A stretch of 39,267 nucleotides of DNA from Ferrithrix thermotolerans DSM 19514 (lineage in GTDB: Bacteria; Actinomycetota; Acidimicrobiia; Acidimicrobiales; CAIXPF01), in assembly GCA_945906305.1 (NCBI GenBank), contig CAMDQT010000009.1, positions 65,828 through 105,094 of the forward strand. The letters run 5' to 3'. The translations under genes and the position numbers were made by a program. Below the pieces are notes generated by a model, which saw nothing but the letters and a program-made list of their open reading frames with translations, ran no database searches and was not told where the DNA came from. This document shows positions 1-36,364 of the stretch, in pieces (position 1 is the first letter of the stretch; every line of letters starts with the position of its first letter).

Positions 1-349
1 AGCCGACCGTGCGCCGCCGGGACAAGAACGGCTCGAAGAACTCCTCGGGGTAATACTTGTACTCCCGGTCGTAGCCCTGCCGGCCGTTGTCGGTACCAGC
101 CACCGTTACGACCGCCTCGCTCAGCTTCGCCAGCGTTTCGCCCATCACCACGTGGCCGGTCCAGGGCTGCATGTTCGTACCCGACGGGGCGCGGGCAGAA
201 ACGTCGAGCAGGTGACGAACCAGTTCGATCGGTACTGGATCGGCCAGAAAGCCGCGCACCGAACGGCGGCTGAGGATGGCCTCGACCGCCGTGGCTGAAA
301 CCTCGGCCGCCTGATGGGCTTTGACCATCGCAAAATCGTCGTCGTGCAC
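1..349 (-). CDS. Nitroreductase family protein, N-terminal part (gene runs off the window)
   Basis: About 116 codons are present; the C-terminal part lies beyond position 1. The N-terminal segment carries the classic nitroreductase opening: ILSRRSVRGF, then PVPIELVRHLLDVSARAPSG and a QPW motif. In this family these contribute the FMN phosphate contacts and start the dimer interface. Such enzymes use FMN and NAD(P)H to reduce nitro groups, quinones or enones; the substrate cannot be told from this part. The GTG at 347-349 is chosen because GGGAGAGG lies about 9 bases upstream; an ATG at 326-328 is the alternative. A possible -10 box (TAACCT, complement of 387-392) would give a leader of about 30 bases. 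The gene is divergent from the sulfatase. Confidence 0.85.
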   Translation of the reverse strand, partial: MHDDDFAMVKAHQAAEVSATAVEAILSRRSVRGFLADPVPIELVRHLLDVSARAPSGTNMQPWTGHVVMGETLAKLSEAVVTVAGTDNGRQGYDREYKYYPEEFFEPFLSRRRTVG

Positions 350-528
350 GCTGGACGTCCTCTCCCGGTAGCGGGTCGCGGTCGGTAGGTTAGAGCCCAG
401 CAACGCTCGGGCTGATACGCCACGTTGCTCTGGCGCGTCCCTCGCCGATCGGCCTATCCGAACGGGGCGGCAACGCGGCCAAGCTGGGCAAACGCAAGTC
501 AGGGCCGGTCGAGCCGACCCCAAGATCG
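350..528. other. Divergent intergenic region between nitroreductase and sulfatase
   Basis: This 179-base gap separates two divergently transcribed genes. The nitroreductase side has a ribosome binding site and a plausible -10 (complement of 387-392). I see no convincing promoter or ribosome binding site for the sulfatase and no small gene. Confidence 0.4.
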
Positions 529-30661: not shown

Positions 30662-30807
30662 GACCAACACCCCATCCGGCTTTGCGCCGAGCGCCCGATG
30701 CGTCCACGGCCGGAACAGGACCTTACGCCCAGCCGCAACCGGCGGCGGGGTTGGCTCAGCGCTCAGCCGGCGTAAACATCCGCCGCCAGCGTGCGAAGAT
30801 GGCCGTG

Positions 30808-31866
30808 ATGCACGAGCCAAGCTTGGCCATCCCCGCCGATATCGCCGCCGCGCAGCACACCATCGTGGCGCGCTGGGCCACCCCGGGGTCATTCTGGAGC
30901 GCGGCGCAACGCCTCGCCATTGTCGAGATGGTCCGTCAGGCCCGCGACGCCGCGCCGCTCGCGGCGTGGGTCACTCCGTCGAGCGTTGAAGGCCTGCTCG
31001 ACGCCGCCTGCGTGCTACCCGCCCCCCTCAGCGATGCGATATGGCGGCTCACCAACCACCCTGGCACCCTCACCATCGACTGGTACCACCAACTGCTCGA
31101 CCGGGGCCTCGCCGCCGGGCCCTATGTGGAACTTGTCGCCGTGGTGGCCCAAGCCAACTGCGTGGACCGCTTCACCGACGCGCTGGGCATAGCCCGCCAT
31201 ATCCTGCCGACGCCCACGCCGGGCCAGCCTCGCGTCGCCATTGCCGAGGATTGCGAGGTTCGCGACCACTGGGTACCCACCGCGGCAGTCAAGGGCGCCA
31301 ACGTTCTCAAGGCGTTGAGCCTGCTGCCCTTCGAGAACGACTCGCGCCGCATCCTCTCCGACGCCCACTACGTGGCCGAGGCGGCCCTGCTCGGCGAGCT
31401 CACCGCCGGCCGCGCCGGTCTGAGCCGACCACAGATCGAACTGGTCGCCGCCCGCACCTCCACCCTCAACGAATGCTTCTATTGAGCGAGCAGCCACGCG
31501 CTTCTGCTCGGTCTGAGCGGACAAGCACTTGACATACCGGTCGGTTTTGAGGCGGTCAACGGGTCTGAGCACGGCGACGGTGCCATCGCCCATGGGGCGC
31601 TGCTCGCCCGGCTCGCCGAGGCCATGTGGCGCAACGACCCGGCCGAACTCGCCCTCACTCGCGCCGAGGCCGCTGCCGCGCTCGGAGCCGAAGCGCTGGT
31701 GCATGCCATTGCGGTCTGCGCCTTCTTCCACATGATGACGCGCCTCGCGGACGGCACCGGCACTCCGCTCGACCACGGCAGCGTGGCAGCGACCGAGGCC
31801 ATCCGTCACGCCATTGGCGTCAACAACTACGTGAGCCGCCGCCACCTCGCCCCCCGGCAAGGCTGA
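30808..31866 (+). CDS. AhpD-like selenoprotein with in-frame UGA (CxxU motif)
   Basis: Read through TGA 31483-31485, this is one frame of 352 residues with selenocysteine at 226. The residues around it are NECFY-U-ASSHALLLGL, giving Cys223-x-x-Sec226-x-x-x-His230. This is the active-site pattern CxxCxxxH of AhpD-like peroxidases with the second Cys replaced. A similar but motif-less repeat lies in the N-terminal half (YVELVAVVAQANCVDRFTDALG), so the protein has two CMD-type units. After the TGA the family pattern continues: AHGALLARLAEAMW, LTRAEAAAALGAEALVHAIAVCAFFHMMTRLAD. A hairpin with loop GGTCT follows at 24 bases. The start is uncertain (ATG 30808, GTG 30805 or ATG 30799); TTGGCT-N16-TAAACA (30751-30778) is a promoter candidate. 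Such proteins reduce peroxides or pass electrons through thiol pairs. Without recoding it would end just before its catalytic residue. Confidence 0.85.
31503..31521 (+). promoter_or_regulatory. Candidate bacterial SECIS hairpin of the AhpD-like gene
   Basis: TCTGCTC (31503-31509) pairs with GAGCGGA (31515-31521), seven pairs including one U-G, around the loop GGTCT. The loop starts with GG and is 24 bases from the UGA, matching bacterial SECIS geometry. Confidence 0.7.
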
Positions 31867-35551: not shown

Positions 35552-36364
35552 ATGACTAAGAGGACCCATCGGATTGCGGCGCTTGTGACACTGCTTGGCG
35601 TGTTGGCGTCCTGCTCGGACGAAGCCGCCACCGGCCACTGGGCGGACCAGCACGAATCTGTGCACCGCGAGGCCTACGCGGCGCACTTCACCTACTCCGG
35701 AGCAGCCGGACCCGACCATTGGGGCCAGCTCTCCCCGTCGTACTCGACGTGTTCGGAAGGCAGGGAGCAGTCGCCCATCGACCTGACGGGGGCCAGGCCG
35801 GTCGAGCTCGAGGACATCAAGTTCGCCTACCGGCCTTCGACGGCGGCGATCATCGACCACGGGCATACGGTCCAGGTCAATCTCCAAGATGCGGGAACGA
35901 TCACGGTCGGCGGCGACCAGTACCGCGCGGTGGAGTTCCATTTCCACGGACCGAGCGAGCACGTCAAAGACGGAATCTCCTACCCCCTCGAGGTGCACCT
36001 CGAGCATCGGAATGCCGCCGGTCGTCTCGCCATTATTGGCGTCTTCATCGAGGTGGGTGCCCCCAACGCGGCACTCGACCCGATGCTGCAGCAGATGCCC
36101 GAAACTGAGGACAGCCACGCCGACCTCACCGAGGCGTTCAACCTCGAGGCGTTGCTGCCCTCGACGCGGGCGACGTACCGCTACTCAGGGTCGCTGACCA
36201 AACCGCCGTGCCCTGAGATGGTGTCGTGGTTCGTGATGGCCACCCCCATCACCATGAGCGCGGCGCAGATCGCTACGTTGACCGCGGCGTTCCCCGAGCC
36301 CAACAACCGTCCCCTACAGCCGCTCAACGACCGCCGGCTTACGCTCGATTCCAACGCCGGCTGA
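35552..36364 (+). CDS. Alpha-type carbonic anhydrase, predicted lipoprotein
   Basis: The 270-residue protein interconverts CO2 and bicarbonate. It has a signal peptide ending in a lipobox, LASC, with Cys21 the lipidation site, so it should be anchored outside the cytoplasmic membrane. The zinc ligands of the alpha class are His130 and His132 in EFHFHGPSEH and His149 in EVHLEHR. DHWGQL near residue 55 and EGREQSPIDL near 69-78 are further alpha-class marks, as is SLTKPPCPEMVSWFV. ATG 35552 lies 11 bases after the enoyl-CoA hydratase stop with no strong ribosome binding site, so co-transcription is likely. It ends 12 bases before a convergent membrane-protein gene. Confidence 0.95.
   Translation: MTKRTHRIAALVTLLGVLASCSDEAATGHWADQHESVHREAYAAHFTYSGAAGPDHWGQLSPSYSTCSEGREQSPIDLTGARPVELEDIKFAYRPSTAAIIDHGHTVQVNLQDAGTITVGGDQYRAVEFHFHGPSEHVKDGISYPLEVHLEHRNAAGRLAIIGVFIEVGAPNAALDPMLQQMPETEDSHADLTEAFNLEALLPSTRATYRYSGSLTKPPCPEMVSWFVMATPITMSAAQIATLTAAFPEPNNRPLQPLNDRRLTLDSNAG

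Follow-up and report, generated by a model that had tools for sequence, protein, structure and literature searches.

The closest described relatives of the gene analysed here belong to the NCBIfam family NF041238, which is named "alkylhydroperoxidase-related (seleno)protein, CFYUT" (AhpD_rel_CFYUT). This family is included in a published list of predicted selenoproteins (PMC13188914), which identifies it with 'hypothetical protein 1' from the Sargasso Sea study of 2005 (PMC1088965). A stem-loop that follows soon after the UGA and carries a small G-bearing apical loop was described as a feature of bacterial selenoproteins in the latter study (PMC1088965). No functional data on the NF041238 family were found in the literature that was searched.

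The other relevant systems are AhpD together with the peroxidase-related proteins of TIGR01926, Sestrin2 and the debrominase Bmp8. The E-x11-C-x2-C-x3-H pattern is the proton-relay centre of AhpD, which was established for the M. tuberculosis protein, and the second Cys of AhpD is the peroxidatic one. In Sestrin2, the redox Cys is located in the N-terminal half. In this study, we compared with these systems a gene from the window, i.e., the whole stretch of 39,267 nucleotides of DNA that was analysed, in which a selenocysteine (Sec) codon had first been called from the raw sequence.

Results and Discussion

The gene is predicted to encode a selenoprotein of the NF041238 family, and the in-frame UGA within it is almost certainly decoded as Sec. 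The features on which this reading is based are as follows.

30808-31866, plus strand: predicted selenoprotein gene, NF041238 AhpD-related (seleno)protein; 352 residues with Sec226; 312 bits, E 4.5e-93
31438-31440, plus strand: Glu211 codon, which supplies the E of the AhpD-type E-x11-C motif; no variation in the 61-sequence alignment
31474-31497, plus strand: codons of the putative redox centre C223-F-Y-U226-A-S-S-H230; C223, U/C226 and H230 invariant, as is E211, in the 61-sequence alignment
31483-31485, plus strand: in-frame UGA, the predicted Sec226 and second redox residue of C-x-x-U; TGA in 91 sequences, TGT/TGC in five
31503-31509 and 31515-31521 (stem) with 31510-31514 (loop), plus strand: bSECIS-like apical hairpin; conserved in 91 sequences

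The TGA at 31483-31485 is in frame with the ATG at 30808 (an ATG at 30799, which is also in frame, is equally possible as the start) and is the sole interruption of the frame. Its context, NECFY-U-ASSH, its coordinates and the residue number 226 agree with the preliminary description, while the count of 127 residues given there for the part beyond the UGA had to be corrected to 126, the frame ending at the TGA at 31864-31866. The read-through protein scored 312.3 bits against NF041238, for which the cut-off is 175, and covered model positions 1-356 of 357. At the fourth position of the C-F-Y-U/C motif, where members of the family have Sec or Cys, the protein has Sec (CFYUASSH), and its relatives mostly have CFYU and some of them CFYC. 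The near whole-length match above the curated cut-off, the C-x-x-U motif and the downstream hairpin are all shared with NF041238; the window motif reads CFYUA instead of the CFYUT of the family name, and the protein is otherwise an ordinary member. The Pfam CMD score was just under its cut-off, and the scores against TIGR01926 (45.1 bits, cut-off 81.8) and TIGR00777 (16 vs. 192) also remained below theirs; the protein is related to the AhpD / TIGR01926 peroxidase-related group but is not a member of it. The initial reading as an AhpD-like gene with a C-x-x-U active site was supported, and all of the sequence-based checks proposed with it gave the expected outcome. Automatic annotation had been expected to truncate the protein before the selenium, which need not happen when the annotation is based on NF041238.

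An AlphaFold2 model that was built from 61 alignment rows was nearly all helical (pLDDT 96.3), and it predicts a single chain made of two all-helical halves, each of them AhpD-like. The working centre, E-x11-C-x2-U-x3-H, is kept only in the C-terminal half. This half aligned with the AhpD-like structure 6k40 at a Z of 12.8, and the whole chain aligned with human Sestrin2 at a Z of 17.2 (234 residues, rmsd 3.8, residues 5-319 of the window protein, 11% identity). Foldseek returned no match at E <0.001, and the Sestrin match therefore rests on the second aligner. Solely AhpD-like or CMD-type chains were listed in a profile search of the PDB with E up to 0.01. A profile comparison of one half with the other gave an E of 3e-4 as a single comparison and a probability of 38%, which is weak support for a duplication. 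With AhpD and the TIGR01926 proteins (PDB 6k40, 2oyo, 2prr), the window protein shares the fold of its C-terminal half and the E-x11-C-x2-C/U-x3-H centre, whereas it differs from them in having two halves per chain and a Sec where they have the second Cys. The same tandem AhpD-like layout over the whole chain is seen in Sestrin2 (PDB 5t0n, 5dj4), but the redox centres of Sestrin2 and the window protein lie in opposite halves. Bmp8 (PDB 6ohi, 6ohj) shares the CMD fold (Z 12.6); its identity to the window protein is 14%, its chemistry is a different one and it has no Sec.

Because Sec stands in the place of the peroxidatic Cys of AhpD, a selenol peroxidase or a related reductase is the best guess for the function. 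The N-terminal half would be a degenerate partner of the C-terminal half, which would work through Glu211...Cys223-x-x-Sec226-x3-His230. By analogy with AhpD, the electrophilic substrate, a peroxide or some other compound, would most likely be attacked by Sec226, Cys223 would resolve the resulting intermediate as a Se-S bond, and Glu211 and His230 would relay protons. The activity is thus most likely that of a thiol/selenol peroxidase or a related reductase, and we lean towards peroxidase chemistry as the main job of the protein.

The gene itself lies among acyl-CoA genes, which include those for enoyl-CoA hydratases, acyl-CoA dehydrogenases, a CoA-transferase and a flavin monooxygenase. Among the relatives, acyl-CoA dehydrogenase, CoA-transferase III, flavin monooxygenase and P450 genes recur as neighbours, and an FAA hydrolase and a luciferase-like monooxygenase were each found in a single case. 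It is possible, though less likely than peroxidase chemistry, that the selenoprotein has a main job other than the reduction of peroxides and acts as a CMD-fold reductase or lyase on an acyl-CoA, terpenoid or aromatic breakdown metabolite, an explanation that competes with the proposed chemistry and not with the decoding of Sec. The recurrent neighbours speak for it, as does the capacity of the AhpD fold to host other chemistry, of which the Bmp8 debrominase is an example. However, no conserved operon around the family gene was detected among the neighbourhoods of the relatives that were examined, and these vary so widely that the context is weak; moreover, the AhpD peroxidase motif is complete. 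Further downstream, at 35552-36364, the window carries a gene for an alpha-type ('eukaryotic-type') carbonic anhydrase (Pfam PF00194, 141 bits).

The conservation of the UGA was assessed across the class of the host and among other relatives. Matches to NF041238 above the cut-off were found in 73 of the 395 sampled genomes of the class Acidimicrobiia, in which the family is hence common, and nearly all of them read through one TGA. The homologues from the relatives and the class searches likewise almost always have exactly one in-frame TGA, and the genome searches that counted every stop type found neither TAA nor TAG within the matches above the NF041238 cut-off. Among 94 extracted sequences, which included that of the window and had been selected for U or C at the Sec column, the codon was TGA in 91, which belong to the same class, and TGC in three (L010, L094 and the more distant AhpD-like protein L017). 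Of the 91 TGA sequences, 68 form a set in which identity around the site is below 70%. In several genomes (L046, L050, L052, L055), two or three UGA-type paralogues were present, which fall into CFYUT-like and CFYUL-like groups. Separately, an AhpD-like gene, L020 (G030 contig 215, about 142-507, minus strand), has the motif CVYUTQSH and a downstream UUCCGUGCGGAG hairpin; at 50 bits, it is outside NF041238 proper and possibly represents another AhpD-type selenoprotein group.

Inspection of the Sec column for Cys, which had been proposed in the preliminary description, was informative: five relatives have TGT or TGC at the position of the UGA. These are L010 (the same gene as L135, G097 contig 434), L094, L134 (Marinomonas sp. 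MED121), L136 (uncultured Bermanella) and L137 (an Acidimicrobiales MAG). Cys-type relatives were returned by a contig scan that was queried with the alignment and are useful as controls; the scan that was queried with a single protein gave no matches, presumably because back-translation omits TGA for the Sec column. Four of the five have lost the downstream hairpin. L010 has retained it (CTC CGG GCG AGC), and its genome also holds UGA-type copies and selB. To judge from its sequence, L010 seems to have switched from Sec to Cys recently, leaving a relict hairpin.

The hairpin consists of UCUGCUC (31503-31509), the loop GGUCU (31510-31514) and GAGCGGA (31515-31521). The seven-pair stem that had been described is real and contains one G-U pair, but the distance of 24 nucleotides after the UGA refers to the start of the loop and not to the stem. 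Its folding energy is ordinary in the single sequence (z 0.35), and energy alone therefore proves nothing. Of 4066 TGA triplets from comparable DNA, approximately 0.3% are followed in the allowed range by a hairpin of at least seven pairs with such a loop; it is because of its conservation across the 91 sequences that the hairpin goes beyond chance. In essentially all of these, C-U-C faces G-A-G across a loop of five bases at a fixed distance from the UGA, with the inner pairs CUC...GAG kept in 99-100%. Loop position 2 is G in 91/91 and position 3 is U (73) or G (18). When the UGA is counted as codon 1, codon 9 is CTC in all 91 sequences, compared to 42% of the Leu codons elsewhere in these genes, and AGC or AGT stands at codon 12 in 89 of them, compared to a background of 25% of the Ser codons elsewhere. 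Different amino acids are encoded at codons 10 (R, S, G) and 11 (A, E, W, S, L, V), yet neither the stem bases nor the loop G change, which indicates a constraint on the RNA and not on the protein. True covariation is scarce because the inner stem pairs never vary. The examination of the downstream region for a bSECIS thus yielded a conserved bSECIS-like hairpin; scanning the window against Rfam gave no hits. In this one sequence, 31484-31493 could instead pair with 31504-31513 as an inverted repeat, in competition with the hairpin.

The Sec genes whose presence was to be checked, selB and a tRNA-Sec (with the anticodon TCA/UCA), were both found in the host genome, as were selA and selD. Among 99 genomes, which comprised that of the window and its close relatives, selA was present in all 15 with the UGA gene and in 44 of the 84 others (Fisher p 3e-4, with shared ancestry ignored). 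The selD of the host (L041, G000 contig 41, 9604-10557, minus strand) has an in-frame TGA of its own and is probably itself a selenoprotein. At the window gene, the hairpin that closely follows the UGA at 31483 would be bound by SelB with Sec-tRNA(UCA), and selenocysteine would be inserted at residue 226 with no stop at this codon.

Two other readings of the codon have to be weighed against the insertion of Sec. If the UGA were a genuine stop, a sequencing error or the mark of a decaying pseudogene, the downstream frame would be left over from a longer gene or would form a small gene of its own; the standard code does halt at 31485, and an ATG-started ORF of 80 residues lies at 31624-31866. 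We regard this as very improbable, since 91 sequences have TGA at this same codon, the protein is conserved to either side of it, the hairpin is conserved as well, and the genome has the Sec machinery. Read-through with another amino acid, by nonsense suppression or a reassigned code, would as such suit the sequence equally well but is just as improbable, given that the gene's own terminator is TGA, that tRNA-Sec(UCA), selA and selB are in the genome and that the relatives without the UGA have Cys at the site.

Conclusions

Strong comparative evidence confirms the Sec recoding that was first called from the raw sequence. The observation is genuine and well supported, and most of it was known before: NF041238 has been predicted as a selenoprotein family since 2005, and the window gene is thus one more member of a known family. 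It is conceivable, albeit unlikely, that this family, with its use of selenium, is the bacterial equivalent of the sestrin layout, with a tandem of AhpD folds in one chain, the active centre in the opposite half and a dedicated non-peroxide substrate from acyl-CoA or terpenoid breakdown. Of greater interest than the family membership are two details, the tandem layout and the Cys relative with a relict hairpin. The apparent switch from Sec to Cys, with the hairpin left behind, would provide a natural test of the reversion of a selenoprotein gene.
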